A DNA stretch of 64,000 nucleotides from a virus, in the IMG/VR virus record IMGVR_UViG_3300017963_007659, positions 1-64,000 of that record, one strand, 5' to 3'. The notes below the pieces were generated by a model, which was given only the letters and a program-made list of their open reading frames with translations, was not told the origin of the DNA and searched no databases. Shown here one piece after another: positions 26,742 to 47,001 of the stretch (positions within the stretch are counted from its first letter, which is position 1; every line of letters begins with the position of its first letter). A program made the position numbers and the translations under genes.

Positions 26742-26745
26742 CGTT

Positions 26746-28933: not shown

Positions 28934-28946
28934 AGGGAAGACATAC

Positions 28947-29288: not shown

Positions 29289-29293
29289 TCTCA

Positions 29294-29301: not shown

Positions 29302-29320
29302 TAAGAATGTAGAGGTTTAC

Positions 29321-30502
29321 ATGAGCGATCAAGAACTTTGGAACACCCTCAAGAACGTCCAAAAGACTCTGAAGAAGTGGGAACACGTCAAGAGTCGTCT
29401 CCCCAAAGCCATCCGTGAAGACGCTGGAGAAGCCTTGTACACGGAGCTGGTGGAGGCAGCGGACAACCTCCAGTCTTGCATCGCGGATGCTCTCTCTCAC
29501 GAGATTCGAGCCGACGCCCAAGACGCACCTCCTTTTAATAGAGAGGAGCTGACGGAGAAGCTGCACACAACCGCGCACAAATTCATCCAGGCGAACCGCA
29601 TGGACTTCGCGAAAGAGATTCTGGAAGCTGAAGCGCAGCTCAAGGGATTCGATGTGGTTGGAACCCAGAGGGATAGCTTGGACACAGCAATCGATGCTCT
29701 TGTAGCGTATGCTTCGGGTCAAAAGACCGCAGCCACCGTCAAGCCATCGATGTGGAACAAGATCGTAGCTAAGATTCCTGGAGTCTGTCGCTTCAACAGC
29801 ATGAGTGTACATCGACTCCAAGAAGCCCTGAAGCGAGCTATCCAAATTCAAAAAGAGATCAAGGCTGCTGAAGCTGCTGGTGACAAATCTAAAGTCAGCC
29901 ACTTGGTCCGTGAGGCCATGGACTTGGCGTACCCAGAGACCGCTAAAGGGCTCGGAGCTGAAATCAACTGGAAGATGTACAAAAAGTCCTACGCGAAGTT
30001 CGTCAAAGCTGGAAAAGCTGTACTAGAGCTTCGTAAGCAAAACAAGAAAGTTGAAGGACTCAAAGCAGCTTGTGACTCCAAGGGAAAGAAGAAAAAGAAG
30101 GGTTGTACCTCCTGCTCAAACTCTATCACAACAGAGCAGGTCCAGGTTATGGCCAAGCTCGTCGAGTTGGGCGAAGAGCAAGCTGCCAAAGATCTCGGCA
30201 CGCAGCTCATAGCCCAGCAGCAATCACAAGACCTTCCCAACCCAGATACCTCCTCAGAGACCATCGACCACAAAACCGCTTTCGAGGCAGCCTTGGAAGA
30301 AGGCAAGAAGGTCGGTCAACGAAAAGAAGCCTCTGGGGTGCAGAAACTCAAGATGATGCTCGACGACGTCATCTATGGCAATCGCTTCCAACATGAGCTA
30401 TCCCGTTGGACGGACGCGAACTTCGATGAGAGCAAAGCACGGGAGCTTCAAGAAGCTCTCAGCGACTCCATTGAGAATCTTCTCTGGACCTACATGAGGT
30501 AG
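29321..30502 (+). CDS. LEAG-like helical protein with repeated C-terminal domain, 393 aa
   Basis: Mostly helical and charged. A Lys/Cys patch (KGKKKKKGCTSCSNS, about 252-266) separates an N-terminal helical region from an internal LEAG-like hairpin (VQVMAKLVELGEEQAAKDL, about 271-289). The last 75 residues (EASGVQKLKMMLDDVIYGN ... IENLLWTYMR) are almost identical to the C-terminus of the next protein, showing domain duplication. No enzymatic motif found. Could be virion-internal or a scaffold-type protein. Confidence 0.75.
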   Translation: MSDQELWNTLKNVQKTLKKWEHVKSRLPKAIREDAGEALYTELVEAADNLQSCIADALSHEIRADAQDAPPFNREELTEKLHTTAHKFIQANRMDFAKEILEAEAQLKGFDVVGTQRDSLDTAIDALVAYASGQKTAATVKPSMWNKIVAKIPGVCRFNSMSVHRLQEALKRAIQIQKEIKAAEAAGDKSKVSHLVREAMDLAYPETAKGLGAEINWKMYKKSYAKFVKAGKAVLELRKQNKKVEGLKAACDSKGKKKKKGCTSCSNSITTEQVQVMAKLVELGEEQAAKDLGTQLIAQQQSQDLPNPDTSSETIDHKTAFEAALEEGKKVGQRKEASGVQKLKMMLDDVIYGNRFQHELSRWTDANFDESKARELQEALSDSIENLLWTYMR

Positions 30503-30540
30503 TTTAGTATCATACTAGACTAGATTAGAAGGAAGATAAA

Positions 30541-30909
30541 ATGATCACTGATAAGCACATCGAAGCCCTCGCGAAGCTCGTAGACGCTGGCCAATCGGAA
30601 GCCGCCAAGAAGCTAGCTGAGAATCTGGTCGCTCTGAATGTGGAAACCCCGGCTGAAGCTCCTTGTGATTTCTCCCAGATGGGCGAGAAGCGAGCAGCGT
30701 TCGAGAGAGCGCTCCATGCAGGGAAAGAGAAAGAAGCCTCTGGGATTAACAATCTCAAGAGGATGCTAGAAGACGTCATCTACGGCAACCGATTCCAAAA
30801 AGAATTGTCTCGTTGGACCGATGAGAGTTTTGATGAGAGTAAGACGCATGAGCTTCAAGAAGCGCTCACTGACTCCATTGAGAACCTTCTCTGGACATAC
30901 ATGAGATAG
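30541..30909 (+). CDS. Short paralogue of the preceding C-terminal domain, 122 aa
   Basis: An N-terminal LEAG-like hairpin (HIEALAKLVDAGQSEAAKKLAENL, about 5-28) is joined to the same C-terminal domain as the 393-aa protein (DVIYGNRFQKELSRWTDESF; ENLLWTYMR end). It is in effect the 393-aa protein without its first 265 residues, from tandem duplication. AGGAAG precedes the ATG. Confidence 0.8.
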   Translation: MITDKHIEALAKLVDAGQSEAAKKLAENLVALNVETPAEAPCDFSQMGEKRAAFERALHAGKEKEASGINNLKRMLEDVIYGNRFQKELSRWTDESFDESKTHELQEALTDSIENLLWTYMR

Positions 30910-30935
30910 TTGACAACTACCCAAAGGATATCGAC

Positions 30936-32519
30936 ATGCCTGACGAAAAGACAGCGAAAGAGCGCACTTGGGTCACGAACGGCTACCTGGAGCTTCTCCC
31001 TGGTAGTGGCTTCTCCAGAGGTCACGCCAAAGCGCTCAAGAAGCATCTCATGCAGATGACCAAGGCTCCTCGCTATTGGCCTCTTCGTCATGGGAAGAAG
31101 TGGACGTGCACTGACGTCGCTATGTCGCGCAGAGCGATTCTTGTAGCTTTCGAGACCGACGCTCCTGCTGACTATGAGATTCTAGACGAGATCGAACAGG
31201 ACCTCATCGGAGATAACGGCTTCGAGGGTCTCATCGCCGACTTCTCACGAAGCACTCACGCTCCAAAGTCCATGGGAGAAGCTCTCTATGAGGTCGATCT
31301 CCTGGATGAAGACCGCGCTGATTCAGCGAAGCCGTTGAAACGCATTGGAGCGGATGTTTCGTGGAACGTGGGGATGGACGCCAAAGGAGCGAACGTCCAA
31401 CAAACTGAAGAGGGAAACATGTCCAAAGTTAGTTCCGACGAAATGGAAATCCTCAGCACTCTGATAGAGAGTGGTCAAAAAGACGCAGCGCGTCAACTTG
31501 CTCATGGTCTCGCTGAGCGTGGGGACACTATCGTCGCTGACGGTGATGAGGAAGAGGTCGCCGAGCCGGTTGAGGCTGAGGTCAAGGAAGCTGCTCTTGA
31601 TATACCCCCCTCTCTTCCTAGGGAGCTTCAAAAGGCGTCTCCTGCTCAGTTGAGAAAAGCAGTGGACTATCTTGCGAAGAAAGCCACACGTGAGCTTCGG
31701 AAGATGCAGGATATTGTCCAAAAACAAATCCCTACTGCCTTCAAGAAACAGGATGACGTCGCGCTGGGTAACCTCCAGATGATGGAGAGACTCCTTGCGG
31801 AAGCTGTTGACAAGAGAGAGTTTGGAGCGAGCACCAAAGAGGCTGGCTACAAGAAACAACGCCTCTCCCCAGCTGAAGCCAAGGTGATGAAGCGGACTCT
31901 TCGTGACCGACGTCGAGACCGAAAAAACCGGAAGCTCATCGACATGCAGCACAAAAAGCTGGGTCTTGAATTCGGGCAGACGGTCTACTTCCAGGATGAG
32001 CCCTACCTCATGTACGATCTGGATGCTGAGGCGTCGGCTCCTCGTGGGGTGCTGGCTGTTTTGGTAGCTCCTGACTTCTCTCATCTCGTGCGCTACGTCA
32101 AGATCCCTGCGATCTCGACGGAAGCTCCTGGTGGTGGATACGACCCGGAGACGGATGAGTATGCCCATTGGGCGTCCAGTGACGAGGACAACGTCGTGAA
32201 GATCGAAGGTCTTCTCAAAGAGGGGAAGGTCGACGAGGCTATCGAGCTGCTCTCCGCTGATGCTGAGCCCAAGGAAGCGACGTCCAAGACAGGAAGCTAC
32301 AAGAGTCTGAAACTCCATGGCGAGATTCACGACCTCCAGACACGCCTCCAGGACAGAATGTCAAAGGAGATTCTTCGTGTTCCCCTTCCGGATGAGACGG
32401 TCATCCTGGACTACCCAGACGGAAAGTTCGACAGGCAGATGAAAAAGGCGCTCGACCTCCTAAAGGCGCTCGAAAAAGCTTACGATGCCTACTCTCGGTA
32501 CAATCCAGACTACAAGTAG
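30936..32519 (+). CDS. Multi-segment LEAG-like protein, 527 aa
   Basis: N-terminal 140 aa are mixed alpha/beta (TWVTNGYLELLPGSGFSRG...; AILVAFETDAPADYEIL). Two LEAG-like hairpins follow: MEILSTLIESGQKDAARQLA (about 168-187) and VKIEGLLKEGKVDEAIELL (about 422-440). Between them is a basic helical region (KKQRLSPAEAKVMKRTLRDR) and a beta segment (LEFGQTVYFQDEPYLMYDL). No family recognised. An internal ATG before KVSSDEM could give a shorter product. Follows the two related genes, forming a small operon. Confidence 0.7.
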   Translation: MPDEKTAKERTWVTNGYLELLPGSGFSRGHAKALKKHLMQMTKAPRYWPLRHGKKWTCTDVAMSRRAILVAFETDAPADYEILDEIEQDLIGDNGFEGLIADFSRSTHAPKSMGEALYEVDLLDEDRADSAKPLKRIGADVSWNVGMDAKGANVQQTEEGNMSKVSSDEMEILSTLIESGQKDAARQLAHGLAERGDTIVADGDEEEVAEPVEAEVKEAALDIPPSLPRELQKASPAQLRKAVDYLAKKATRELRKMQDIVQKQIPTAFKKQDDVALGNLQMMERLLAEAVDKREFGASTKEAGYKKQRLSPAEAKVMKRTLRDRRRDRKNRKLIDMQHKKLGLEFGQTVYFQDEPYLMYDLDAEASAPRGVLAVLVAPDFSHLVRYVKIPAISTEAPGGGYDPETDEYAHWASSDEDNVVKIEGLLKEGKVDEAIELLSADAEPKEATSKTGSYKSLKLHGEIHDLQTRLQDRMSKEILRVPLPDETVILDYPDGKFDRQMKKALDLLKALEKAYDAYSRYNPDYK

Positions 32520-32553
32520 CTCTTCCTGATCCCTCCTCTCCGCACATCTTCAG

Positions 32554-32561
32554 GTTATCTC
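32554..32561 (+). promoter_or_regulatory. GGTTATCT element
   Basis: Lies 58 nt before the ATG at 32620 in a 100-nt gap. The bases after it can form an ATCTC/GAGAT hairpin. Confidence 0.45.
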
Positions 32562-32599
32562 TCCCTAGGTGAGATATTCCGCCTAGTTAATCTGGTGTC

Positions 32600-32620
32600 A
32601 TGACCAAAGAGGCGTCTTAA
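32600..32620 (+). CDS. Possible six-codon leader ORF
   Basis: ATG ACC AAA GAG GCG TCT TAA encodes MTKEAS. Its stop overlaps the start of the 1492-aa gene (TAATG), the arrangement expected for translational coupling. GAGG within it also serves as ribosome site for the large gene. It may be coincidental. Confidence 0.3.
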   Translation: MTKEAS

Positions 32621-35600
32621 TGACCATTAAAGCCTATTTTCAGTACCGTGAACAGGATGCCACCCGCTATTGGAACCTGACCAATGCGAACATTCGGCTC
32701 AAAGGTATTCTTGAGGGAACTGGTGTAGTTTCATCCGTAGCTGGCCAGCTTCGGGTAGAGATCGCCCCCTTCACCGTCCAAACCTTCGATGGGATGACTG
32801 TCGTCTCCGATGCGATTGAGACGTTGAACGTCACGGACGACGAAGTCTACTACATCGTCCTCTACGCCAAGTACCAGACCCTCGGTACGCCGACCTTGGT
32901 ACTTCAGGCAATCACTGCGGCGACCTACGCTGCACATCCTGAGAAAGACTACCTCGTCACCTTCGTTCGCTTGGACATTCCCCCGGCTGCGGTTCAGGTC
33001 AACCCAGCCGACTACGACGGGTCTGTTCGAGACGGTCTGTCTCCTCTTCGTCGTGCCTACTGGAAAGAGGCTGTAGCTGACTTCGCTTCGTTGCCTACCG
33101 ATGAGCAAGAGGTTCAGAACGGCGATATCCGGTTGACGCTGGATACCCACACAGCTTGGGTCTACAATTCTGGAACCACGACCTGGGATGCTCTCTCAGT
33201 CACGACGACTCTGGAAAATGTAGGTGGTCGTCAGGTGGAGTACTTCGCGGACTGGAACCGAGCGGCTAACGGTGACGGTATCGTTGGTGGTAACGATCGC
33301 TACGGAACCTTCAACACCGCGTTCACTACAGACCCCAAGCTCTCTATCCACGAGCACGCTGGCGTAGTGGACATGATTGGAATCGGTCAGATCCACGCAG
33401 CTATCAATGGACACCGTGTCGATACGATTCACACCGACTATACGATGACAACCGCACAGCCTGCTCCTGCTGCGCCTGACCGTTATGACTTGGTGTGGTT
33501 GGAGGTTTGGAGAGAGACCACGCTGAGCCCCGAGACTGAGGTGCATGAGACCTACGGTGGTGGCACAGCAGCGTTCTCTGTAGTCAGAGACGCCTTGGAA
33601 GACCTCAATATCAACTCCAATGAGGTTGCTGGAGCGAACTACGACGTAAACCAGATCACCACGACCGACGACAATCAGTTTGTAGTCACCAAGTGGCGCG
33701 TTTGGGATATGCCCAACGTCGATCCCTTGAACGTCAACCAGCCCCACTACCAGGTGGACTCTGGTGGTATCAAGCCACAGAACATCGACGGCAATAACTT
33801 CGAGCGTCCTCTCTATGGTGTCTACAAGGGCAATGTATGGCGAGCGCTCTCTCCGACAGCCTATGATGACTACTCTTGGGCGATCCCACTCTTGGTCATT
33901 CGACGTACTGAGTTCGAGACCATCGTCGGCAACAACGCTATCAAAATCATTCGCTCGAATGGTGAGCGCTACGTCTGGGAAGTCTACCCAACCGCTGAGG
34001 TAGACAACGGATCTCGCATCACGGGCATGAGTCATATCAATACCGAGACTCAAAAGAAAGAGGATACCCAGCAGCTCGGAGCGTCTGGTTGCCTCAATTA
34101 CCCAGACCTTCAATTGGGAGTGGATACCTTGACGGTTCCCCAAGGGTCTACATTCCACATCGATGGGTACACACACACTCTTCAATCGGACCTGACTATC
34201 ACTCTTCCGGATGCTCCTCTTCTCGCAACGAGGCACGACTTCGTTTATTTGGAGATGACAAGAGCCACGAACCCTGACGAAAGAGTACCCACTGAGACCA
34301 ATGATCTACTCTTCACAGGCTACGATATTTATCGCGGATTCGTCACATACAACTACCAGCTCAATCTTGCGGTCGTTGACGCAGGCGTGGACACTATTAT
34401 TGAAGATGCTATGGCAACGGCTGGATTTGCCAATATCAGCCCTGGTCTCTACCGAGACATCTCCACAACAGACGCGCGTAGTCCTATTGATTACGCCATT
34501 TGGGCCATTCCTGTAGCCATCGTTCACCGCTTGAACCAAGCTGGGTGGGACCGTGCGATACAACCGAATGGTGGTGCTGCGGGTACCCGTCCCGACAACC
34601 GAGACTGGCATGACATCGATGTCGATGATGTGTTGGACCTCCGTCACAAAGTAGTGCTCCCTGGAGAGGACCTGAAGGGTCTTCTGGACGAGTCGCAAGA
34701 GCGACTGTTGAGTGGGAAGCTGCGAACCCGTATGGTACAGCATCCTACATGGGCGAATAACTATGGTACGGGTCTGATGGAACAGACCAGCCTCTCGGTA
34801 GGCGGAACCGCTGGAACGAACAAACTTCCGGCTGACCCTGACACTCTACGCTACATCTGGTCAGATGCAGCCGAACAGGTGGTGTTTGGGGAGACATTCC
34901 CTGCGAATGCTCCTTATGCTGGAACGTATGTCACCTGGAATGGACCGGCCAACCCGGCTACCTTGACGATTGCAGCCCCTCCTGGAGCGTACATCGTCAT
35001 CGGGTCTGGAGACCTCAACCCCATTTTCGGCATTCAACGACATACTGCCTCACCGCAGAACGGCAACGGTCCTGGGATCAGTGACTCAGATAACGGAGAC
35101 AACTTCACCGTCATGTTCCCCAACATCGGTGACTTGCCGTGGACGCAGACGTCATTTGATGCAAACGGTAACGCCATTGCGTGTTCAATAACTACAAACT
35201 GGGTGTCAACAATCAACCCCGCTGATGCTGATGCTGTCATGCACGTCTACTACTGGATTTGCTATGACCGTTCGACGCAGCTCGACGGACAGGGCAATAT
35301 CTACAACGACTTGAACCAAGGCTTTCAGCACGTGCCCGACGAGGTCATTCTCGCGGAGAACTTTGCCGGGGGTAATGACCCAGCCATTGGTCCGCTAGCT
35401 CGGGAAATGACCTACGTGAACTACACAGGAGCTTCGCTGACCATCACAGCAGCTCAGATTACCGCAGCGTACCCTGAGTTCGCTGGACCACCGAAGATCT
35501 ATGGTGTGCCTGTAGTCCATACAGAGGGACGTTCTATTATGCACGCCAACGCGACAAATCCATCCAGTGAGATTTCTATCTCTCTCGACGACGCGTTTAC

Positions 35601-37098
35601 AGACATCACCATCACGCCAACAGTAGCTTGGGTCAATGAGAATATAAAAGTTCTCGTTATCTTTGACGACGTTGGCTATGAGGGGTGGTTCGACTTCCGC
35701 CAACACACCAAGAGCCTCATGGGACCATGCTTCTGGTCAGTGCAGGGACCATGGACTCCTGGAGCGGTGGAAAGTGGCGTTCTCATAGAGCTAGCTGCGG
35801 GGCAATACAGCCTTCCTATGGATGAAGTGATTAAGGAAGGTATGGTAGCAGGTGGTATCCAAGAAGATGCATGGGGCAATCCTGGACGTATGAACATCCA
35901 TGGGCTTGTCTACTGGAGAGCCGCTGGTTCTCCTCCAGGCACTCCTTGGGAGATGACCACATGGGCTGGAGACCCCTTTGAGCCCTTCATGCGCTTCGGA
36001 GCACTCAACTCCCATGTATTCACATTCATGTTCGAGACGGTACCCGCTGTACCTCTTGCCTATGAATTCATGTTCGTGATCCCGGTCACAAACCCTGCTG
36101 GACCAGCCGCCGATTACATCTTCACGACGAAGTATACGCCCTATCAAGGGAAAAACACCGCATCCTCCGCTGACATTGACGAAGACCTCCATGGAGTTTG
36201 CGTGGCTAGTGGAGACCCGGCTTGGACGACAAGAGGATCGAACGATCCCCGTATCCAAGCCCTCGACCAACCCACCGGTTACATTGACCGCACGGATATC
36301 GTCTCAAGTGACCCCAGCAGATGTCTGACAACACACCAACAGAACGATACCTACTGTCTCGTTCAAAGCTGGCGAGACGACTACAAGAATGAGAGGCATG
36401 TAGCAGGGAACGCCTCCGCGCGTCTTCCTCTAGTTGACCCCACGAACAACATCTTCGCCCTCTCCAGTCCGGAGTTTGGATTAGATTCCTCGCTTCGTTA
36501 TGAAATCCTTGTGATAGGTGGTTTTACCGAGCGCGAAGCGACGGACTTTGCGTCTTCGGGGTCTATGCCGTCAGCTTCTCCGTACACCCTTGGGACCATT
36601 GAGGAGCCAGTGATTGGGTCATTGCTGAAACCCGGCTCCATTATTCGTTGGCCTCTTGGTATGTCAGTTATCACGAAGTCCGCTCTTCGGGATGCTGGAA
36701 TAGTACAGGGACAGCGTGGATGGTCGATAGCTCACGAATATCTCCAGTCGACATTCCTACCTCCTGGATATTACTTCCCGACCTGTACGGCTTCATACCT
36801 GCCAGGAGGAAGTGGTCATAACTGGAATCTGCTTCTTCGGGAGCTTGGTGTCTCGTATCTGGAAGCGCCCGAATTCTTCAGCATGGGGACTTCCCTGACA
36901 CTCACGATAACGGCAGCAGCACTTGGCTACCACTGTGCCCTCATTTCTCCGGACCAGGACCCAGGGGTACTACGCATGCAGGTCACAACAGCACAGCTTC
37001 CTGCCACCGTCAGCGGTACGACGGTCAATGCTGTCGGAAACACGTTCGATGCATTCTTGCCACACCGCAATCTGATCTTGAGTTGGAATGCTGGGTAG
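32620..37098 (+). CDS. Large virion protein, 1492 aa (baseplate/fibre-like)
   Basis: The longest gene of the window. It is beta-rich, Thr/Asn/Gly-rich and lacks membrane segments, as in phage baseplate or tail-fibre proteins. The first 200 residues (YFQYREQDATRYWNLTNANI..., TLNVTDDEVYYIVLYAKYQT) have the look of a virion-attachment domain; the middle has repeated PxxYDLVWLEVWRETT / RHDFVYLEMTRATN segments, suggesting duplicated beta domains. The C-terminus contains more compact domains. Specific role unknown. It heads a 20-kb set of virion genes. Confidence 0.75.
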   Translation: MTIKAYFQYREQDATRYWNLTNANIRLKGILEGTGVVSSVAGQLRVEIAPFTVQTFDGMTVVSDAIETLNVTDDEVYYIVLYAKYQTLGTPTLVLQAITAATYAAHPEKDYLVTFVRLDIPPAAVQVNPADYDGSVRDGLSPLRRAYWKEAVADFASLPTDEQEVQNGDIRLTLDTHTAWVYNSGTTTWDALSVTTTLENVGGRQVEYFADWNRAANGDGIVGGNDRYGTFNTAFTTDPKLSIHEHAGVVDMIGIGQIHAAINGHRVDTIHTDYTMTTAQPAPAAPDRYDLVWLEVWRETTLSPETEVHETYGGGTAAFSVVRDALEDLNINSNEVAGANYDVNQITTTDDNQFVVTKWRVWDMPNVDPLNVNQPHYQVDSGGIKPQNIDGNNFERPLYGVYKGNVWRALSPTAYDDYSWAIPLLVIRRTEFETIVGNNAIKIIRSNGERYVWEVYPTAEVDNGSRITGMSHINTETQKKEDTQQLGASGCLNYPDLQLGVDTLTVPQGSTFHIDGYTHTLQSDLTITLPDAPLLATRHDFVYLEMTRATNPDERVPTETNDLLFTGYDIYRGFVTYNYQLNLAVVDAGVDTIIEDAMATAGFANISPGLYRDISTTDARSPIDYAIWAIPVAIVHRLNQAGWDRAIQPNGGAAGTRPDNRDWHDIDVDDVLDLRHKVVLPGEDLKGLLDESQERLLSGKLRTRMVQHPTWANNYGTGLMEQTSLSVGGTAGTNKLPADPDTLRYIWSDAAEQVVFGETFPANAPYAGTYVTWNGPANPATLTIAAPPGAYIVIGSGDLNPIFGIQRHTASPQNGNGPGISDSDNGDNFTVMFPNIGDLPWTQTSFDANGNAIACSITTNWVSTINPADADAVMHVYYWICYDRSTQLDGQGNIYNDLNQGFQHVPDEVILAENFAGGNDPAIGPLAREMTYVNYTGASLTITAAQITAAYPEFAGPPKIYGVPVVHTEGRSIMHANATNPSSEISISLDDAFTDITITPTVAWVNENIKVLVIFDDVGYEGWFDFRQHTKSLMGPCFWSVQGPWTPGAVESGVLIELAAGQYSLPMDEVIKEGMVAGGIQEDAWGNPGRMNIHGLVYWRAAGSPPGTPWEMTTWAGDPFEPFMRFGALNSHVFTFMFETVPAVPLAYEFMFVIPVTNPAGPAADYIFTTKYTPYQGKNTASSADIDEDLHGVCVASGDPAWTTRGSNDPRIQALDQPTGYIDRTDIVSSDPSRCLTTHQQNDTYCLVQSWRDDYKNERHVAGNASARLPLVDPTNNIFALSSPEFGLDSSLRYEILVIGGFTEREATDFASSGSMPSASPYTLGTIEEPVIGSLLKPGSIIRWPLGMSVITKSALRDAGIVQGQRGWSIAHEYLQSTFLPPGYYFPTCTASYLPGGSGHNWNLLLRELGVSYLEAPEFFSMGTSLTLTITAAALGYHCALISPDQDPGVLRMQVTTAQLPATVSGTTVNAVGNTFDAFLPHRNLILSWNAG

Positions 37099-37109
37099 GA
37101 GGTAACTTT

Positions 37110-37772
37110 ATGAGTTCCGTAGCATTTTTCGTCAAAAAAGGGGTGGTGGTCCGAAAGTCTACTACCGACTTTACTCCAAAAGAGGGAGAAAAGCTAGTAG
37201 TTCTGGATGAGGAAACGGCAAAAGGGATGACGGTCACCCCATGGATCCCAGGGTCTTCTCTCTATGACAAGCCAGAGGACTTTCCCTTCTGCAAGATCTC
37301 TGCGGATGATATCCAAACGGAGTACACGCCTCCGACAGTGGACAGGCAGGCGAAGAAAGTAGAAGCGCTTCTTAGCTCCATTCTTGTAGTCTTGGGGAAG
37401 TCTCTTCCAACGGAGCTTCAAGAATCCCTTAGCCTCCTCCAGTCCCAACTCGCTGTCCATGCGGAGATGGAAGAGTATTGGGGACGTGTGGTCTATACAG
37501 AGGGAGCAGCTACTCTCACGGACGGTGACGGAATTACCGTAGAGGTCGTTCAAGACGGTGAGCTGAAAGTGACCTTCGAGAGTGCTTTCGCTGAGACCGC
37601 TTCCTTTGGGGTCTGGGTCACCTTCGAGACCGATGGCGTGCGCTATGTCACGTCACACAGTGTAGGTGGAACAGACTGTACGATCTCCCTTAAAGCCATC
37701 TCAGATGGGGCTGCTGTCACTGAAGCCACCTTCTCCGTTCTCGCCAAGGGTCGTCTCGGCTCCGCAGAATAA
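37110..37772 (+). CDS. Putative virion accessory protein, 220 aa
   Basis: Not recognised. The N-terminal half is soluble, mixed alpha/beta, with a helix QAKKVEALLSSILVVLGKSLPTELQESL (about 83-110); the C-terminal half is a predicted beta sandwich (ATLTDGDGITVEVVQDG, VTFESAFAETASF). It follows the 1492-aa gene by 11 nt with GGAGG before the ATG, so the two are co-translated; likely a partner or cap of that structure. Confidence 0.7.
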   Translation: MSSVAFFVKKGVVVRKSTTDFTPKEGEKLVVLDEETAKGMTVTPWIPGSSLYDKPEDFPFCKISADDIQTEYTPPTVDRQAKKVEALLSSILVVLGKSLPTELQESLSLLQSQLAVHAEMEEYWGRVVYTEGAATLTDGDGITVEVVQDGELKVTFESAFAETASFGVWVTFETDGVRYVTSHSVGGTDCTISLKAISDGAAVTEATFSVLAKGRLGSAE

Positions 37773-37824
37773 CGCACTTTTTCTTCAAGAATGACCGTAT
37801 CTGTCACTGGAAGATAAAAATTCC

Positions 37825-37832
37825 AGTCAAAG
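37825..37832 (+). promoter_or_regulatory. AGTCAAAG element
   Basis: Fourteen nt before the lipoprotein ATG, preceded by A-rich TAAAAATTCC. Same arrangement before 50593, 61242 and 62123. Confidence 0.45.
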
Positions 37833-37846
37833 GTATGTAGGGAGAT

Positions 37847-38359
37847 ATGACGATGGAGAAAACTATCTACAGCCTGATTTCAACCATTCTTGTAGGATTA
37901 CTTGTAGTTGCTGGCTGCGGAGCTGAACCACGCTCCCAGGACGACCCCTTCGATGCCGATGTGGAAGAAGACGGAGATGTGGAGTCTGACGCCTCAGATG
38001 GAGATGCGGACGGAGACTCTGACGGCGATGCGGACGGCGAAGGAGGCCCAGACTACGAGGGGGATGAACCTGGAGAGTGTGACGACGGAGCTGACAACGA
38101 CCGTGACGGTCTCTTCGATTGTGATGACGATGGCTGTGCTGGTAGCCCCGTCTGCGATCAAACAGATGGAGATGCGGATGCTGACTCTGATGGCGACAGC
38201 GATGGCGATGGCGACGGGGATTCAGATAGTGACTCCGACGCTGATGAAGATGAGGACGTTGACGAGGAGGAGGAAGACGCAGACATCGACGAAGATGTAG
38301 GAGGACGAAGAGGAGGAGCCGTGCGGAGGCTGTTCCACAGGCTTCACCTGCTGCGATGA
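37847..38359 (+). pseudogene. Lipoprotein with Asp/Gly-rich stalk, 5' part of a frameshifted gene
   Basis: Residues 1-24 are a lipoprotein signal peptide with lipobox LVVAGC, so the mature protein would be lipidated at Cys24 and surface-attached. A stalk of D-G-D/D-A-D-G units (about 32-160, with DDGADNDRDGLFDCDDDGC, a calcium-loop-like segment) follows. Near 38300 the frame changes: this frame runs to an Arg-rich nonsense end, whereas the +1 frame continues as E-E-E-P-C-G-G-C-S and joins the Cys-rich part at 38388. Removing one G near 38300-38307 would restore one long protein. This composition is typical of secreted proteins of Myxococcota-like bacteria. The shift may be a real mutation, an assembly error or programmed. 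Confidence 0.75.
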
Positions 38360-38387
38360 TCGCTGTGTAGCTCTAGATGTCGATGAG

Positions 38388-39236
38388 ATGAACTGCGGAG
38401 GTTGTGGCCTCCAGTGTGGCTCCGGAACGGACTGTGTCTCAGGGGAGTGTCTCTGTAGCTGGACTCTTCATGGAACGGACCTCTCCATCGTCTGTGACCC
38501 CGGAGCCGGTTGCTGCGTCAGCGATACCACGGGCATGGGGGAATGTGTGAACCTACGAATCGGAGCCCTCGACGACGACAATTGGGAAGAGACTACCCAC
38601 TGTGGTACCTGCAACAATAGCTGTAATGGCTGGTCCTGTCGGGAAGGGGAATGCTGCTTCGAGTATGACCCCGCGACTTGGGAGACCTGGGATGAGTGTC
38701 CTACCCCTGAGCACATGTTGACTCCAGACTGTGGTGGCGACTGTGGTCCAGACGGTACCTGCTGCGGAGACCGCTGCGTGGATACGGAACAGGACGAGAT
38801 GAACTGTGGTGGTTGCGGTCGAGAGTGCGGGGATGGAGCTACCTGTGTTGAAGGCGTGTGCCGCTGTCTACAATCGAGCGGCTATGAGGAAGGTGTCGAC
38901 TGTCGGTCATGGGGAGCGTGCTGCCGAGAAGGCTGGATAGGGGAACCCCGCTGTGTGGATATCATCGATGGGGTGAGCAGCGGTGGTGGAGATGTCACAC
39001 ATTGTGGTGGATGCGGAACCGTCTGCTACTACATCGATGAACCCCCTTACGATAGCGCGCAAGAGTGCGTTGACGCAATGTGTTATGTTGAGACGGATGC
39101 TGGCTATTGTACTCGTGACACGGACTGTCCTGATCCTCCTGCCTGGTTGTTTGACACCTCGACTCCTACTGTAGAATGCAGAGCAACGCGCTGCGTCGTG
39201 ACCTATCCTCCCTACGGTGCTCCTTTCGGCGGCTGA
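38388..39236 (+). pseudogene. Cys-rich 3' part of the frameshifted lipoprotein gene
   Basis: 282 aa from the first ATG, but the coding frame is open upstream to about 38305 and reads CSTGFTCCDDRCVALDVDEM before it. It contains at least three NCGGCG-type units (NCGGCGLQCGSGTDC, NCGGCGRECGDGATC, HCGGCGTVC) with CCGDRCVDTEQDEMNC connectors, a disulphide-rich extracellular repeat of deltaproteobacterial surface proteins. No independent ribosome site precedes 38388, supporting a single original gene. Probable role: surface or virion-exposed protein, perhaps taken from a host. Confidence 0.75.
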
Positions 39237-39267
39237 CCTCTTTGAACTGAAGCAGTCAAAGAGTGGT

Positions 39268-39528
39268 ATGCACATCAGTAGAGCGCATCCATCTTTCGGT
39301 CTATATGTTCACGCGGTGCAGGAGGGACAACGCATTCCCTGTCTCCATACCGTCAGCACTGATAACAAACAGTATCTGACAAACGACCTGATTGGTGGTG
39401 TCTACGACTACCTCTACGTCAAACTGTCGGATCTCCCCCGCATGCCTCTTCAAACCCTCCGAGACTTCTACGATACCAAAGAGGAGCATGAGATCAGGAT
39501 TATTGAGAAGGATCCCTACCGTGAATGA
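39268..39528 (+). CDS. Hypothetical protein, 86 aa
   Basis: Not recognised. Compact and beta-rich (FGLYVHAVQEGQRIPCLHTV, DYLYVKLSDL) with a helical end. ATG 39268 is preferred; an in-frame GTG at 39217 would add 17 aa and overlap the preceding gene. AGTCAAAGAG lies immediately upstream, resembling the AGTCAAAG element. Confidence 0.6.
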   Translation: MHISRAHPSFGLYVHAVQEGQRIPCLHTVSTDNKQYLTNDLIGGVYDYLYVKLSDLPRMPLQTLRDFYDTKEEHEIRIIEKDPYRE

Positions 39529-39937
39529 GGGAGGATGCAAGCTCGCAGAATTTCAGGAGCTTCCTCTTCTGGACGCCCTCTTCCATGTTGGTGCGTTCTT
39601 TGAGACGCTCATAGCTTCAACACACAGTTTGGCCCAACGCCTCATCATAAAGAGCCCTTTGGGGTGCGCACTGAAGGTCTTCTGCCATGATGCGGAGAAC
39701 CGAGCGCTTCTTGTAGAAGCTGTGGAAAAGGCTCTTGAAGTTCCCATTCAGGAAGGCTGCGTACACAACAATGACCATGGCTTCTTCGGGATCATGGTGA
39801 TTCTTGAAGCCGAAGATCATCAGCAGACACTATGCCAGATTGCGGATATGATTGCTACAAGAATCCCTCTCGGGTGTATGGGGTGCTATCTTCGCGCGTT
39901 CGTTCGGAAGTACGCCGATCCTGACCTCCTCTGGTAG
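39521..39937 (+). CDS. Hypothetical protein, 138 aa (GTG start)
   Basis: Not recognised. Mixed alpha/beta with a central KVFCHDAENRALLVEAVEKAL helix and HNNDHGFFGIMVILEAEDHQQTL strand-helix, resembling a small ferredoxin-like fold, but with no proof. GTG 39521 follows AAGGA and overlaps the previous stop by 8 nt. The 3' half carries two exact copies of the window-wide 10-mer (39800, 39855). Confidence 0.65.
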   Translation: MNEGGCKLAEFQELPLLDALFHVGAFFETLIASTHSLAQRLIIKSPLGCALKVFCHDAENRALLVEAVEKALEVPIQEGCVHNNDHGFFGIMVILEAEDHQQTLCQIADMIATRIPLGCMGCYLRAFVRKYADPDLLW

Positions 39938-39956
39938 CCCAAAGGCCCCTCCATCA

Positions 39957-39964
39957 GGTTACCT
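39957..39964 (+). promoter_or_regulatory. GGTTACCT element
   Basis: Nine nt before the ATG at 39974. It overlaps a CCTTA-TG-TAAGG inverted repeat (39962-39973) that ends at the ATG; AAGG touching the start codon is too close for a normal ribosome site. Confidence 0.45.
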
Positions 39965-39973
39965 TATGTAAGG

Positions 39974-41044
39974 ATGACGTACCATTTCCTTAAAAGACGA
40001 GTCCATTCAGCTTTTGAGATGCACACTATCCTCCGTGAGTGGATGATTGGACCTCTTGGCTGGACAGACATAGACAACGACCCTGGTGGTGGTTCCTTCG
40101 GCTTGGTCGCTTCAAGTACCGATGGTATCCTGACGACCAGCTTCCCTCGACGCATCTCTTCTGGGTCCAGCCTCTTCACCCCTGCGATGGTAGGGCAATG
40201 GCTCGTGACCTACGGCACAACTCTCGACCAGAACAAAGGCGTCTTCAAGATTGGGCGCTACATCGACCCTCAGAACATCGAATGTGTCGATGGGCTCTTC
40301 GGACCGAACTTCACCACAGAGTCTCCTGTGAACTGGAGAGTGGTCGATCCTACTCTGAACATCGGAAACTCCTGGTTCGTGGCTCAAGCCTACAACGGTT
40401 GGGAAGTCCGCGTCTATACAACAGGTGTAGCTACCGAGATTCATTATGAAACTGGACCTTTCGGTGGGTGGGACTCCGTGGGTGACGCTTGGACGCAACC
40501 TGTGACGAGCAGTGCCTACATCACAGAAGGAACAAACCAGAGTTGGACATGGTTCGGTCCTGATTCTCCAGGAAACACTCACATTGTAGGTGTGAGTGAT
40601 GACGACTACGACACTGTGCGCGAGATCGCCTACATAGGGGAAATCAATGCATTTTATCCTGCATCAGACCCCTCTCCTGTGATTTGTTTGGGAGGGGCTC
40701 CGGATTTGACTCCTGCTGGCTTCTTGGGAGGGGCACGTGGAGGTCAGATAGCTGCGGATGACGTCACACCTGTCGACGTTGTATCTCTAGAGTTCGGTGA
40801 CGGAGGGGTTGCCTTCGAGTTTTTCCAAGACTTGGAGCCGAACGCATGGGATGGCTTTTGGGATGAAGCTGATATTGAGGTGAGTGCGCTAGCAGGGGTC
40901 AACTCTGAGAACCGAGGCGTTCTATACGACGTTCGGTTGTGTAGTACCTTGCTAAGACGGAGGGAATCTCTCAATAATGGTCGGACACGCCTTTCGTTGG
41001 GAACGGGAGTCAGCGTGCTGTCGGATGGAGGTTCTCTCGGATAA
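39974..41044 (+). CDS. Virion/fibre protein, 356 aa
   Basis: Beta-rich, Gly/Thr-rich. An N-terminal helix (HFLKRRVHSAFEMHTILREWM) precedes a domain whose strand order (MVGQWLVTYGTTLDQNKGVFKIGRYIDPQNI, in pieces) parallels the protein at 41375 (VGKLLAVYDPAEVRNTGIFP...FTDPSTI), so the two are paralogues. A probable tail or baseplate component. Start adjoins a GGTTACCT element. Confidence 0.7.
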   Translation: MTYHFLKRRVHSAFEMHTILREWMIGPLGWTDIDNDPGGGSFGLVASSTDGILTTSFPRRISSGSSLFTPAMVGQWLVTYGTTLDQNKGVFKIGRYIDPQNIECVDGLFGPNFTTESPVNWRVVDPTLNIGNSWFVAQAYNGWEVRVYTTGVATEIHYETGPFGGWDSVGDAWTQPVTSSAYITEGTNQSWTWFGPDSPGNTHIVGVSDDDYDTVREIAYIGEINAFYPASDPSPVICLGGAPDLTPAGFLGGARGGQIAADDVTPVDVVSLEFGDGGVAFEFFQDLEPNAWDGFWDEADIEVSALAGVNSENRGVLYDVRLCSTLLRRRESLNNGRTRLSLGTGVSVLSDGGSLG

Positions 41045-41059
41045 CCAGAGAGGACTGAT

Positions 41060-41365
41060 TTGATCCTACAGAAGACTGCCATACTCGGGGCATTGTTGGT
41101 TGCGGTTCGTAAAGGAAAGAAAGTACAGAATGTAACGAAGATCGATACCGACGCAAAGACGGTACGAGATGTTACAGGAAAAACATATCAGGTCGACTTC
41201 TTCGTTGCCCTCAAGCCTCCTGTCTTTCTACATAGCAAGCTGGAGGCTCTTGGTATCGAATGGACGGGAGATGTCGCTGCTTACATTAAAAGGAAGAAGC
41301 GACAGTTGAACCAAGAGAAACGCCGCTCGAAGCGGAAGATCAAAGACGAGCAAGCGGCTGCATAG
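41060..41365 (+). CDS. Small basic protein, 101 aa (TTG start)
   Basis: Not recognised. Hydrophobic N-terminus (ILGALLVAV), a beta-rich middle (KIDTDAKTVRDVTGKTYQVD) and a highly basic helical C-terminus (YIKRKKRQLNQEKRRSKRKI). TTG 41060 with GAGAGG upstream is the only start before the conserved part. Sits between two paralogous virion genes. Confidence 0.6.
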   Translation: MILQKTAILGALLVAVRKGKKVQNVTKIDTDAKTVRDVTGKTYQVDFFVALKPPVFLHSKLEALGIEWTGDVAAYIKRKKRQLNQEKRRSKRKIKDEQAAA

Positions 41366-41374
41366 GATCAAACG

Positions 41375-42922
41375 ATGGCGAAACAATGGCTTAAGAACTG
41401 TCCTACAGCGAACCCGCAAGTGCAGGCATTTTCTGCCTTTTGGTTCCTACGGCACTGTCTTCGCTACGATGAGGTGCTGACCTCTGGAGCATGGCCTTCT
41501 GAAGATGCTGCGGACGCTGATGGGGTCGTTGTGACAGCAGCTCCGCAAGAGTTCACGACGACCAATGCACACTTCGCTGTTGGAGATGTAGGAAAGCTCC
41601 TCGCTGTCTACGACCCAGCGGAAGTACGCAACACAGGTATCTTCCCCATCGCTGCCTTTACCGACCCTTCAACCATCACTCTTGGCGGCGCGTGTGACTG
41701 GCAGTCAGACGCTGTAGACCTAGAATGGGTCATGTTCGACCCGGCTTTGGCTCCTGCTCTCGACGAATGGGCTGTAGTCACACCTTCTGTCTCTGGCTAT
41801 GACTTCGAGGTCTGGCTGTCTCCTCGCTCTGCTCCGCATGCTGGCTTGGCCTTCCAAGTTGGCCCAACAGGCGGTTGGGTCGATACCGTCACTGGTCCTA
41901 TACCTGGCGGCATACCTGATGGCGACATGGAATTGGGAGGGACGGCAAACTGGACCCCAGGGGGCGCTGCTGCTGTCGCAAAATCCGTGGTTCAAGTCCA
42001 ATCTGGTGTTCGGAGCCTCATGATTCAGTCTTTCGGTCTTGGCTCGGTCGATAGCGCTCCCTTCAATGGAACAATTGACGGTCAGAACTATGACGTCACG
42101 CTCTGGGTCTACAACGCCTCTGGTCAGCCGCTCAACGTCACCCTCTGGGATGGGGCTGGTTGGCAGGTCTATCCTCCTATGCCGGGTCCACCCGCTTGGA
42201 CTCCATACACGTTGAACTTCACGAAGTTGGCAGGCACTCCAGCCTACCTCCAGTTTGTGACAGCACCCTTTGTTCCGATCAACACCTTGTTCTTGGATAC
42301 CGTCGAATTGGTCTCAACCACACCCGCCCACTTCTCGGAACCAGCTACGAACTATGTCAACCTCGACCCAGCATCGACCACGCTGTTTGCGTGCGGAGAT
42401 GACGATCACTGCTTCTTCTGGGATGAAGGTGGAGCTTCAAGAGCCGGTGCCTACGTAGGAAACTTCGAGCCCCTTCACCCGCCTCCGTCTGTCACCTCTG
42501 AGGGGGACTCGCATCCAAGCTGTGTGCTGGGGGTAGACAATGCGGCTCCTGTACTCAACAGGGCCACCGCTCCCGTGACATCGTTTGCACAAGGAGGCTC
42601 AGCTCTTTTCTCCGACAACACTACTGTCGTCACCTGTTACTTGAATGAGTGGCAGACTTCAGACGCTACCGCGACAGATGTCTTCGGAGATGTGAACTAC
42701 TTGACGAACCCGAGAACAACAACAGGAACAGCTTGGGGGACCATGATCATCCATAGGGAAGACCTCACACTAGGACCACGGTCCAAGGCTGTTCGAGGTG
42801 CTCCGAAGAGCATCTATCTCGTGAATGACAACAACTTGAACCGTGCGCTTCTTGAAGGAGACACGGTCTATGTAATACAGAATGGAATGGCTGTCGCTTG
42901 GGACGGCAGTGTTCCTATCTAA
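41375..42922 (+). CDS. Virion/fibre protein, 515 aa
   Basis: Paralogue of the 356-aa protein in its first 170 residues, with an additional C-terminal half containing a carbohydrate-binding-like beta sandwich (about 185-300: DMELGGTANWTPGGAA..., QSGVRSLMIQS..., YDVTLWVYNASGQPLNVTLWDG), typical of lectin-type jelly rolls that bind host glycans. No catalytic residues noted. A receptor-binding role is an inference. Confidence 0.7.
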   Translation: MAKQWLKNCPTANPQVQAFSAFWFLRHCLRYDEVLTSGAWPSEDAADADGVVVTAAPQEFTTTNAHFAVGDVGKLLAVYDPAEVRNTGIFPIAAFTDPSTITLGGACDWQSDAVDLEWVMFDPALAPALDEWAVVTPSVSGYDFEVWLSPRSAPHAGLAFQVGPTGGWVDTVTGPIPGGIPDGDMELGGTANWTPGGAAAVAKSVVQVQSGVRSLMIQSFGLGSVDSAPFNGTIDGQNYDVTLWVYNASGQPLNVTLWDGAGWQVYPPMPGPPAWTPYTLNFTKLAGTPAYLQFVTAPFVPINTLFLDTVELVSTTPAHFSEPATNYVNLDPASTTLFACGDDDHCFFWDEGGASRAGAYVGNFEPLHPPPSVTSEGDSHPSCVLGVDNAAPVLNRATAPVTSFAQGGSALFSDNTTVVTCYLNEWQTSDATATDVFGDVNYLTNPRTTTGTAWGTMIIHREDLTLGPRSKAVRGAPKSIYLVNDNNLNRALLEGDTVYVIQNGMAVAWDGSVPI

Positions 42923-42931
42923 GGACTACGG

Positions 42932-43450
42932 ATGGCGAGCATAACGCTGGTACCTGGAGTTGTCTTCGGCGCGCTTTCCCCAACGTCACCATCGACGTCC
43001 GGACCCGCTAGTGGTGCGCCCATTCTTTGTGGCGATACGCATGCCCTAGCTACCATCACAGGACGGACCCTGCTTGCTCGGAGCCTCGCTGAGGGGCTCG
43101 CCTTCAAGATTGTGACCTTCGCAGTTGGAACAGCGGGTTACGACCCCACAGACCTGACGAAGGCACTTCCTGTGGACAACACCTTGACTACTCTTCCGGG
43201 AGAGATCTTCTCGGATGCAGTGGATTTGGTAGAGACGCCAAACGATACTGGAAGGAGCTTCTACTGTAGATTGCAGCCATCCGAGGCAAACTATGGGCTG
43301 GGAGACATCGGGATTTGGGGACAGATCGTCCACTCTCCAGAGAACCCAGCGGAAGTAGGGACAACGTTCCTGTTCGCTATCGTCAATCAGCCCTTCCAAG
43401 GCAACAACGAGGACTACACCTACATTTACCGTGTAGTTGTGCAGTTTTAG
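42932..43450 (+). CDS. Tail/baseplate-associated protein, 172 aa
   Basis: Same family as 25417 and 43459: after a Ser/Pro/Gly N-terminus, ARSLAEGLAFKIVTFAVGTAGYDPTDLTKALP, in parts, is the shared core, followed by a beta domain with LGDIGIWGQIVHSPENPAEVGT and an end strand RVVVQF. Likely subunits of a common fibre or baseplate assembly. GGA lies 7 nt before the ATG. Confidence 0.75.
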   Translation: MASITLVPGVVFGALSPTSPSTSGPASGAPILCGDTHALATITGRTLLARSLAEGLAFKIVTFAVGTAGYDPTDLTKALPVDNTLTTLPGEIFSDAVDLVETPNDTGRSFYCRLQPSEANYGLGDIGIWGQIVHSPENPAEVGTTFLFAIVNQPFQGNNEDYTYIYRVVVQF

Positions 43451-43458
43451 GAGCTATC

Positions 43459-43959
43459 GTGGCGATTCCAACCATCTCACTCTTCACCGGATGGCCAATC
43501 CTTGGAGCCGTGGGGTCTGGACTATCTGGACCCTCTTCGTCCAGCTACTACGACCTAACAGACGGTGGACGCGAGCTGATGGCTAGAGCGTTGGTGGAGG
43601 GGTTGGCTTTTCAGATTCTTGAAGTGGCTTATGGTGGAGGTGGATACAACTTGTCTGACCCTACGAAAGCTCTTCCAGTGATTACCTCTTCTACAGCTCT
43701 TGACGATGAGAAGCTACGGGAACCCGTGACCTTTGTCAATGTCATCCCAGGCGGTACCTCTGAATACTACTACAGACTCGACAGGGATGAATTGAACGGA
43801 GAGCGTATCGGTGAGGTCGGGCTGTATGCTCAAATCACACGCTCCCCCCTGTTCCCGGCTGAAGTAGGAACTTGGGTCCTTTATGCGCTTATTCATACAC
43901 CCCTTCAAGTAAAGGGGAGCAAGAGAGTGTTGACGGGAAGAATTTCCCTGTCCCTCTAA
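43459..43959 (+). CDS. Tail/baseplate-associated protein, 166 aa (GTG start)
   Basis: Close paralogue of the preceding protein (MARALVEGLAFQILEVAYG; DPTKALPV; VGLYAQITRSPLFPAEVGT). The family keeps these blocks across a full duplication. GTG 43459 with GGAGC upstream follows the previous stop by 8 nt; ATG codons further in would cut the conserved start. Confidence 0.75.
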   Translation: MAIPTISLFTGWPILGAVGSGLSGPSSSSYYDLTDGGRELMARALVEGLAFQILEVAYGGGGYNLSDPTKALPVITSSTALDDEKLREPVTFVNVIPGGTSEYYYRLDRDELNGERIGEVGLYAQITRSPLFPAEVGTWVLYALIHTPLQVKGSKRVLTGRISLSL

Positions 43960-43977
43960 GACTAGGAAGAAGCACTC

Positions 43978-46900
43978 ATGGCAAGTAAACGAGCACTCTC
44001 CCTCCTGACTGGAGTGAATGAACAAATAACGGACTCCGATGTTCTCGTCACAGGGCGAGTACAGACCGTAGACGGCACAGAAGCTGACCCTGCTCTCAGA
44101 TTTCAGAGTGAAGCAACAGGACTTCTTCTCTCTGCGGCTGGAACCTTGGGATTTAGTGTGGCAGGAACACAGTATCTATCTCTGTCTTCGACAGAGCTTA
44201 CGCTGTCTGCTGGGAACCTGAAGCTTCCGGATACTCCAGGTGGAGGAGCGTCAGGAGTTCTAGAATTCAATAATGCTCCTACGATGCATGTATATGGAAC
44301 TACTTCTATATTCGTAGGTAGTAATGCCGGAAACTTCACGGCAGGTGCTGCCACAAATGTGGTGGTTGTTGGGGACGGAGCCCTAGCAGCACTAACAAAT
44401 GGCAACAATACAATCGCTATAGGAGCTGGGGCACTAGTAAATGCAACCAATGGAGCCCTCAATACAATTGCAATCGGTTCAAATGCCGGATCAGGAATAA
44501 CTTCAAGCTCTCAAACTAACATCGTCATCGGTCATGATGCCATGACCGCTGCGGCGAACTTGCAAGAAAATACAATTGTAGGCAATTCAGCCTATCAAGA
44601 TGGAACGAATGGTAGCAATGTTGTTGTAGGCTACAGGGCAGCCTACAACGCAACAAGCTCAAGTCAAAACGTTATAGCCGGAAGTGAGGCAGTAGAAACT
44701 GGAATTTTGACTGGAGATCGTAACGTAATCTTGGGATTTTCAGCCGCTAGAAATGCCACATCAGCAGGCGATAGTGTCTTTATTGGCAATGAATCTGGGG
44801 AAGGAACTACGACAGGACAGCGCTCTGTAGCCGTTGGGGGAGACTCCTTGATGGCAAACAATACAGGGGATGACAACATAGCTATTGGCTATCGTGCCAT
44901 GGCAGATGATGCTATTGTTGCTATTGGGGCGATGTCAAATAACGTTGCCATTGGCACGGAAGCCCTACGCTACATTGAGGCTGCTACAGCAGGAAACGTA
45001 GCTATCGGCTTCAATGCTCTTCGATTAGTCCAAGGGTCTGGAGCAACTACAAATAACGTAGCTATTGGCTATCAAGCAGGATCTACCGCAGATGGAGCTA
45101 ATAGCTGTGTCTACATCGGCTATCAATCTGGGCTAAACAATGCTACAAGTAACAGACTTATCATTGAAAATAGCAATGATATCACTACTCCTCTTATTGA
45201 TGGAGACTTTTCCGGGAAGGTACTAACTCTCAACGCCAAAGTTACTCCAGCAGACGATGCTGCGCGTTCTCCTCTCAATATTACAGAGAGAAGTGCTGCT
45301 CCCACCTCTCCAGCCACGCATGATGTATACATAGACGATGGAACAAATACAGGGACTGGATCACCAGGATTTAGGAGATATACCGGGGCTGGCTGGGAAG
45401 ACATGGGGTCTCTGGCGGCCAGTGGTGCTCTTCCTGGAATCGAACAGATCCTTTTCGTAAACAAAACTTCGGACGGATACACAGCGGACGGGACTATCGC
45501 CAAACCATACAAGACAATTGGAGCTGCGGTGACCGCTGCCACCGCTCTCACTCCAGCCATCGGCAACAGGATTGCAATCTTCATCTATCCAGGTATTTAT
45601 GACGAGACAGTGTCTACCGCTGATGCTTATGTAGAGTTCATTGGCTTAGACAAAGCCTCCACGATTGTTAATCCTACAACGGGACGAGCACTCAACGTTG
45701 GAGATAGCAACATACGCTTCACTAACTTGACCTTTGAAACGACAGACACCAACAGTGTTGTTTACTTTACGGCAGGGAGCCTCTCGGGTATTGAATTTGA
45801 CAATTGTCACTTCTTTGTGAATAATGCTGCTGGAGGAGCTTTCCAGGTCCCACAAAGCGATGTGAGCATAATCTTTAGAGACTGTCATCTACAGCACGTA
45901 GATACGACAGATGACATATACATCGATAATGCTCCAGCCTACGGCGGTAAGGTAGAGTTCTATACCTGCAAGATTGAGGGTCAGGTGCAGTCTTATGACA
46001 AAGACCTCTACATGTATGGATGTCATCTAGAGTGTCTAGCCTCAAGAAACCTCTATGTGCTAGGCGATGCGAGTAAAATAATCCGTATCGTTGGCTGCAC
46101 AATCGAAACACTGGCAGCACATGGTACTCCTGTCTATATTGATACGGCTTGTGACTGGTCTCTGCTTGGCTGCTCTCTTAAGGCGGCGGGTACTGGAAAC
46201 GAGGTCCAAAGTGGAGGAGACTACCCAGGGACAGTGAAAAATTGTGCCATGGAAATTGGCATGGCATCCTCTGTTCGCCTTCTATCTCCAATCCGAAATA
46301 TTGGTGGTTCGGTAGACTTTTATGAGGACTTCCAACAAGCGATTGATTCCATCGATTCTGGAGACCAAGGAATTGTCGTACTACACGAGAATATAACAGC
46401 CACAGAACAAGCAGTAGACTCTGGAGCTACCGTTACCATTAAGGGAAATGGCTACACCCTTACGGCAAGCTCAACATACTGCTTCCGATCAACAGCTTCA
46501 AGCACCTTGATTGTAGACGACCTAAATCTCTCCGGAGGAGGAATAGCTCTCTCCACAACAAGTTCTACAATGAAGCTCAAGAATGTAAATATAGATCAAG
46601 GGAGAATCTCTATTCAAGCGGGTGCAGATGGGAACTCAAAGCTCATCATGGATAGAGTCATCTGTGACAACCCAGAGGCAACCTATCCAGCCCTTGAATT
46701 CGATGACGCAGATGCTTTCGTATATGTATTTGACAGCTATTTGCAGGGGGCCTCTGGTCAGCCTGCAATCCGTTATGATACTGATAACGATAACTTGTCT
46801 ATGGCGAATACCGCCGCGTTCCATGGTGATGGTGGGGCGAATAATCCAATCAGTAACCCAACAGCAGCTACGACCTACAAGAGTCATCACTGTACTTTCG

Positions 46901-47001
46901 GAGTAGCTCCTGAAGACAATGCGAACTTGAGTAATGATATTGATTCTGGACAGCGTTACAACACAATCGATCCGGATGCTGACTACAGTTGGGCATTGTA
47001 G
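43978..47001 (+). CDS. Fibre: YadA-head-like repeats plus beta-helix, 1007 aa
   Basis: Residues about 110-385 are built of 14- to 16-residue units such as NNTIAIGAGALVNATNG, NVAIGTEAL and DNIAIGYRAMADD, the left-handed beta-roll repeat of trimeric autotransporter (YadA/Hia) heads. After a collar-like linker (PATHDVYIDDG...) residues 495-980 resemble a right-handed beta-helix with YIGIY/VEFIGLDKASTIVNP-type rungs, as in tailspikes. Together they form a trimeric adhesive fibre, presumably for host recognition. No catalytic motif seen. AT-richer than neighbours, hinting at separate origin. Confidence 0.8.
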   Translation: MASKRALSLLTGVNEQITDSDVLVTGRVQTVDGTEADPALRFQSEATGLLLSAAGTLGFSVAGTQYLSLSSTELTLSAGNLKLPDTPGGGASGVLEFNNAPTMHVYGTTSIFVGSNAGNFTAGAATNVVVVGDGALAALTNGNNTIAIGAGALVNATNGALNTIAIGSNAGSGITSSSQTNIVIGHDAMTAAANLQENTIVGNSAYQDGTNGSNVVVGYRAAYNATSSSQNVIAGSEAVETGILTGDRNVILGFSAARNATSAGDSVFIGNESGEGTTTGQRSVAVGGDSLMANNTGDDNIAIGYRAMADDAIVAIGAMSNNVAIGTEALRYIEAATAGNVAIGFNALRLVQGSGATTNNVAIGYQAGSTADGANSCVYIGYQSGLNNATSNRLIIENSNDITTPLIDGDFSGKVLTLNAKVTPADDAARSPLNITERSAAPTSPATHDVYIDDGTNTGTGSPGFRRYTGAGWEDMGSLAASGALPGIEQILFVNKTSDGYTADGTIAKPYKTIGAAVTAATALTPAIGNRIAIFIYPGIYDETVSTADAYVEFIGLDKASTIVNPTTGRALNVGDSNIRFTNLTFETTDTNSVVYFTAGSLSGIEFDNCHFFVNNAAGGAFQVPQSDVSIIFRDCHLQHVDTTDDIYIDNAPAYGGKVEFYTCKIEGQVQSYDKDLYMYGCHLECLASRNLYVLGDASKIIRIVGCTIETLAAHGTPVYIDTACDWSLLGCSLKAAGTGNEVQSGGDYPGTVKNCAMEIGMASSVRLLSPIRNIGGSVDFYEDFQQAIDSIDSGDQGIVVLHENITATEQAVDSGATVTIKGNGYTLTASSTYCFRSTASSTLIVDDLNLSGGGIALSTTSSTMKLKNVNIDQGRISIQAGADGNSKLIMDRVICDNPEATYPALEFDDADAFVYVFDSYLQGASGQPAIRYDTDNDNLSMANTAAFHGDGGANNPISNPTAATTYKSHHCTFGVAPEDNANLSNDIDSGQRYNTIDPDADYSWAL

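Follow-up and report, generated by a model that had tools for sequence, protein, structure and literature searches.

Phage lipoproteins that block a receptor are known. The llp gene of phage T5 adjoins the gene of its receptor-binding protein, and the product, Llp, is a small periplasmic protein which acts from the periplasm (PMC9586334). The gene described here resembles those of Llp/Cor-type exclusion lipoproteins in that it encodes a predicted lipoprotein in a phage and lies among tail genes, as llp lies beside a receptor-binding gene. However, T5 Llp blocks re-adsorption by a different, periplasmic route, and the passages cited describe neither a stalk nor a Cys-rich head for it (PMC9586334). 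The head of the present protein shares tandem CC...CV....D..NCGGCG units with the MXAN_6577-like (NCBIfam NF041328) and Stig1 (Pfam PF04885) families, while the overall plan (a lipobox and a short linker, then the 35-aa module, an Asp-rich stalk and an exchangeable domain at the C-terminus) is that of a class of module-bearing Myxococcota lipoproteins. Our literature searches returned no paper naming MXAN_6577, nothing on the domain for STIG1 and myxobacteria (one match concerned sequence labels), little on phages of this phylum, and nothing joining Myxococcota, jumbo phage and lipoprotein.

The window, i.e. the whole stretch of 64,000 nucleotides analysed, covers bases 1-64000 of the 186,314-base virus record IMGVR_UViG_3300017963_007659. 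This record comes from a genuine phage, large and uncultured, as it carries terminase, portal and PolA genes. The main landmarks outside the window are:

record 158746-160935: terminase large subunit (TerL; phrog_17415, E 3.7e-117)
record from 161332 (L017:17332-19998): portal protein with an intein splicing domain
record 87047-89938 (L014:3047-5938), minus strand: family-A DNA polymerase (PolA) with an N-terminal uracil-DNA glycosylase domain (PF03167, E 2.3e-19)
record 150849-151979 (L017:6849-7979): DNA polymerase III gamma/tau-like (DnaX-like) clamp loader (PF13177, E 1.9e-39)

The terminase is 28-32% identical to the best 20 of 102 matching phage records, 15 of the 20 scanned window proteins have no PHROG match at E 0.01, and two tail-region proteins used as queries recovered no phage relatives. 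The terminase search also returned one near-identical contig, IMGVR_UViG_3300017971_000328, from which the present locus is absent and which is 99.7-100% identical to the right end of the record. The record is thus incomplete: this contig appears to extend about 24.7 kb past that end, with which the phage genome would reach at least ~211 kb.

The lipoprotein gene (37847-39236) sits within the tail gene block, with the following features:

32620-37098, plus strand: 1492-aa protein without family match, a probable tail or fibre protein to judge by its place and size
37083-37772: 229-aa protein, between the 1492-aa protein and the lipoprotein gene
37847-38359, plus strand: stalk ORF, 170 aa, with signal peptide, lipobox VAGC and Asp-rich (Asp-Gly-Asp) stalk, ending at a TGA
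38051-38155, plus strand: 35-aa module in the stalk, DYEGDEPGECDDGADNDRDGLFDCDDDGCAGSPVC, common to Myxococcota-type lipoproteins, with four Cys
38300-38318, plus strand: interval of the +1 frame shift, GA-rich, with AGGAGG twice
38301-39236, plus strand: Cys-rich part, 311 aa with 46 Cys, open only in the +1 frame
43978-47001, plus strand: tail spike or virion structural protein (phrog_4636, E 3.3e-15; phrog_6002, E 2e-12)

An earlier note, made from the letters of this stretch, had pointed here to a surface lipoprotein with D-G-D stalks and with NCGGCG repeats joined by CCGDRCVD connectors. A lipobox signal peptide, a D-G-D stalk, CCDDRCV/CCGDRCVD connectors and NCGGCG repeats are indeed present where it placed the feature. 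It had overlooked that 37847-39236 is not one ORF: the stalk ORF, which extends to 38359, stops at a TGA and the Cys-rich part lies in another frame, +1. The likelier start of the stalk ORF is ATG 37853, with GGAG eight bases upstream (by eye). The lipobox follows a hydrophobic run, a pattern match from which lipidation is predicted, and the stalk ORF is the sole lipobox protein by this pattern among the 239 called ORFs of the record.

The 311-codon +1 frame stays open in none of 2000 base shuffles. It has no usable start ahead of its domains; ATG 38388 is an unlikely start because it falls inside a conserved unit (DEMNCGGCG) that recurs downstream. For want of such a start, the locus reads as one gene whose frame changes through a shift of one base near 38300. 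The sequence is acidic on both sides of the junction, and the two parts read as a single protein. Recoding was considered as the cause of the shift and provisionally set aside, as no start codon, RNA structure or slippery site supports it: the RNA downstream of the break is not unusually stable (z -0.30) and no known slippery codon was seen there by eye. The likeliest cause of the break is an indel that arose recently or a fault of the assembly, and with the frame broken this copy of the gene may not yield the head.

Relatives of the stalk module were sought with the loose motif C.[DN]G.DND.DG..DC.D..C (38078-38137), searched as DNA. Phyla are named here from MAG titles, namely 'Myxococcales bacterium' for G014, 'Deltaproteobacteria bacterium' for G015 and 'Methanosarcinales archaeon' for G016; among the genomes listed, those of the G015 phylum do not overlap those of the G014 phylum. 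Of 188 G014-phylum genomes, 101 carry the motif (up to 59 copies), compared with none of the 148 genomes of the G016 archaeal phylum and only 2 viral contigs among 2.9 million. A 20-kb query (window 24001-44000) matched 86 of 377 genomes of the G014 phylum; among the matches listed, nearly all fall within 37951-38320, the top one with 73% identity over 171 bases (E 1.0e-17). This DNA-level support is partly low-complexity acidic sequence. At the protein level, reading the matched bacterial loci yielded the module consensus xYEGDEPGECxDGADNDRDGLFDCDDDxCxGxPxC, and the phage module is 71-86% identical to eight bacterial proteins over 35 aa. Residues matching the window number 26-30 of 40 in the eight bacterial copies, versus 12-18 of 40 in other acidic motifs, two viral ones included.

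A model (A2) was then built from nine module copies, including that of the phage, which accordingly scores 70.5 bits against a model containing itself. A2 was run on 80 records, made up of the phage itself, 40 G014-phylum genomes (among them G093, picked in advance) and 39 G015-phylum genomes. At 50 bits or more, A2 matched 7 of the 40 G014-phylum genomes versus none of the 39 others (best 46.6). Two of these seven (G093 and G045) had contributed to the model, so the independent figure is 5 of 38. At E 1e-5, A2 matched 17 of 40 and 12 of 39 genomes, respectively; weaker module copies are thus not confined to one phylum. Some genomes carry several copies above 50 bits (eight in G030, four in G019). 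When 21 loci were given to a stricter pattern, 13 came out, 12 of them distinct, and a lipobox-like Cys lies upstream of the module in all 12 (8 by pattern, 4 by eye). In the four module proteins that were scanned, the C-terminal part matched RCC1 repeats, FG-GAP, CarboxypepD_reg and nothing, respectively. All four have a single NF033662 repeat below the cut-off, and so does the phage module, in which this NCBIfam acidic double-disulphide repeat scores 30.4 bits (E 2.4e-7) for a cut-off of 41.

The phage protein differs from these lipoproteins in being phage-borne and in its STIG1-like head, which is absent from the bacterial copies read. In addition, its stalk and C-terminal domain do not share one frame. 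To judge by its sequence, the phage gene is built like a member of the module class, and it is broken or misassembled as it stands.

The Cys-rich part consists of two tandem halves of ~138 aa, which share 35% identity across 139 aa (E 4e-29); each half pairs a canonical STIG1-like unit with a divergent one. It matches Pfam Stig1 (PF04885) with 36.1 bits (E 9.5e-9), above the curated cut-off of 24.1, and NF041328 with 45.3 bits (E 7.7e-12), below the cut-off of 100. It differs from MXAN_6577-like proteins in this lower score, in the divergence of alternate units and in the acidic stalk that precedes it. In the window there are two occurrences of the STIG1-type DNA pattern and one of the acidic motif, and none of 100 dinucleotide shuffles contained either. 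The Cys-rich part matched no solved structure, and a structure predicted from the single sequence had a mean pLDDT of 39.5 and was discarded.

Neither the stalk nor the Cys-rich part had a tblastn match in phages and plasmids, and the gene has no relative in 50,697 phage records. Short patterns, which omitted the conserved units, gave no confirmed Cys-rich relative in viral and genome contigs, and DNA patterns were used in their place. In bacterial and archaeal genomes, the strict pattern found 5 contigs, four titled Deltaproteobacteria/Myxococcales (from three genomes) and one archaeal. With the Cys-rich protein as query, matches at E 1e-6 were obtained in 5 of 235 G014-phylum, 4 of 146 G015-phylum and 0 of 148 archaeal-phylum genomes, i.e. 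this part is dense in no group searched. Among the loci compared, the best match is L042, a bacterial lipoprotein from G184 which also has a lipobox, is 34% identical over 287 aa and passes the NF041328 cut-off of 100 with 102.2 bits. However, 11 viral contigs (L002-L012) carry the same STIG1-like unit in giant proteins, the longest with 2486 aa, and one of these, L008, nearly ties with L042 (70.9 vs 72.8 bits against the Cys-rich part). Some of these giants also carry long SPTP/SPSP repeats. They share the repeat unit with the phage lipoprotein but lack the acidic module and span 944-2486 aa, counted from stop to stop or to the end of the locus. In the eight whose start lies within the locus, inspection by eye revealed no signal peptide.

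The earlier note had proposed that such features are frequent in secreted proteins of Myxococcota and relatives and seldom seen in phages. This is so for the stalk module; for the NCGGCG repeats it holds only in part, given the 11 viral contigs. The protein search that it had called for did find a bacterial lipoprotein as best match of the loci compared, but the near-tie of L008 with L042 makes the repeats the weaker host evidence; read from their sequence, they are not diagnostic of a host by themselves. It is therefore the stalk module, and not the repeats, that points to a probable Myxococcota-type bacterium as host. The proposal of a host-type lipoprotein in a phage with such a host is backed by the 35-aa module together with the MXAN_6577-like similarity, the latter below cut-off. 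Neither CRISPR spacers nor tRNAs, also suggested as routes to the host, gave a link: two 20-kb stretches of the record had no spacer-like match in an array among 377 genomes (three short matches from this search were checked and lie in no repeat array), and no tRNA was found in the record. A module dense in one bacterial clade and near-absent from viral contigs thus provides a host hint without CRISPR or tRNA, in a large phage for which none of the other genes tested has a close match.

Capture from the host, also proposed earlier, fits these data, but a recent capture does not. Synonymous codon use leans towards the phage by 0.27 and 0.16 log2 per codon for the two parts, within a range of 0.02-0.49 for 20 window genes, so that the gene was not freshly captured from a host that uses codons as the compared bacterial loci do. 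It would have come from a host of the module-carrying clade, long enough ago to adopt the codon use of the phage.

We thus regard the gene as very probably a modular, host-type lipoprotein of the Myxococcota clade borne by a phage. Our best guess for its function, a tentative one, is a surface or receptor-blocking role like that of known phage lipoproteins, because of its place in the tail block and its predicted envelope anchoring. Identity and role taken jointly form a reading that falls a little short of an even chance, with most of its weight on identity. Under this reading, the infected cell would export and lipidate the protein, and the acidic stalk, probably Ca2+-binding, would hold the disulphide-rich head off the membrane. 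Late in infection the head would cover or block a surface receptor, which would stop sister phages from adsorbing again to debris or to cells already infected. Superinfection exclusion by analogy with T5 Llp is plausible, although the analogy is loose because Llp, as described in the passages cited, is small, periplasmic and without a stalk. If it acts at the cell surface, the protein would be a phage lipoprotein for superinfection or surface change that uses the host's own display scaffold.

Alternatively, the gene may be a decaying passenger, i.e. a gene captured from the host that serves no role and is now broken by a frameshift. The one-base break without sign of recoding and the lack of relatives in the phage records agree with this; we consider it unlikely, as both parts are still open with their cysteine motifs intact and the phage-like codon use implies that the gene was long kept before it broke. 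It is likewise improbable that the product is a virion protein, namely a Cys-rich adhesin or fibre accessory which merely starts with a hydrophobic stretch, like the giants of large phages. Such a protein would suit the tail gene block, the use of the STIG1-like unit in the viral giants and the near-equality of L008 with the best bacterial match, but the lipobox and signal peptide found here were not seen in the eight giants inspected, and the stalk module is a feature of lipoproteins from bacteria.

A regulated shift, by phase variation of the GA tract or by +1 recoding helped by AGGAGG, might toggle between a stalk-only and a stalk-plus-head lipoprotein. The two AGGAGG copies in the GA-rich tract at the break and the otherwise intact frames speak for this; the unremarkable stability of the downstream RNA, the failure to see a known slippery codon and the fact that only a single genome is at hand make it very unlikely. 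We give just as little credence to a bolder version of the preferred modular lipoprotein, in which the phage would have borrowed a display scaffold of the host clade, the duplicated Cys-rich head would cloak the infected surface late, and the GA-rich junction would switch the head on or off. Finally, bacterial DNA misassembled into the phage contig is hardly credible: the gene stands alone as host-type in a record that is otherwise that of a phage, and none of the further records retrieved spans the locus, but its strand is that of the tail genes, its spacing is tight, and its codon use and GC3 are phage-like.

Some other genes of this phage deserve mention. Like the portal protein, the ribonucleotide reductase large subunit carries an intein splicing domain (L015:17839-19998), and a homing endonuclease-like protein is encoded at window 23876-25414 (phrog_314, E 5.2e-16). 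The DnaX-like clamp loader is 27-38% identical to phage copies among the matches listed, and shows 68-86% DNA identity over short stretches to Myxococcales-phylum genomes. The tail spike gene at window 43978-47001 and a second protein gene at record 73701-75230 match the same tail spike/virion families (phrog_4636, 6002 and 23837).
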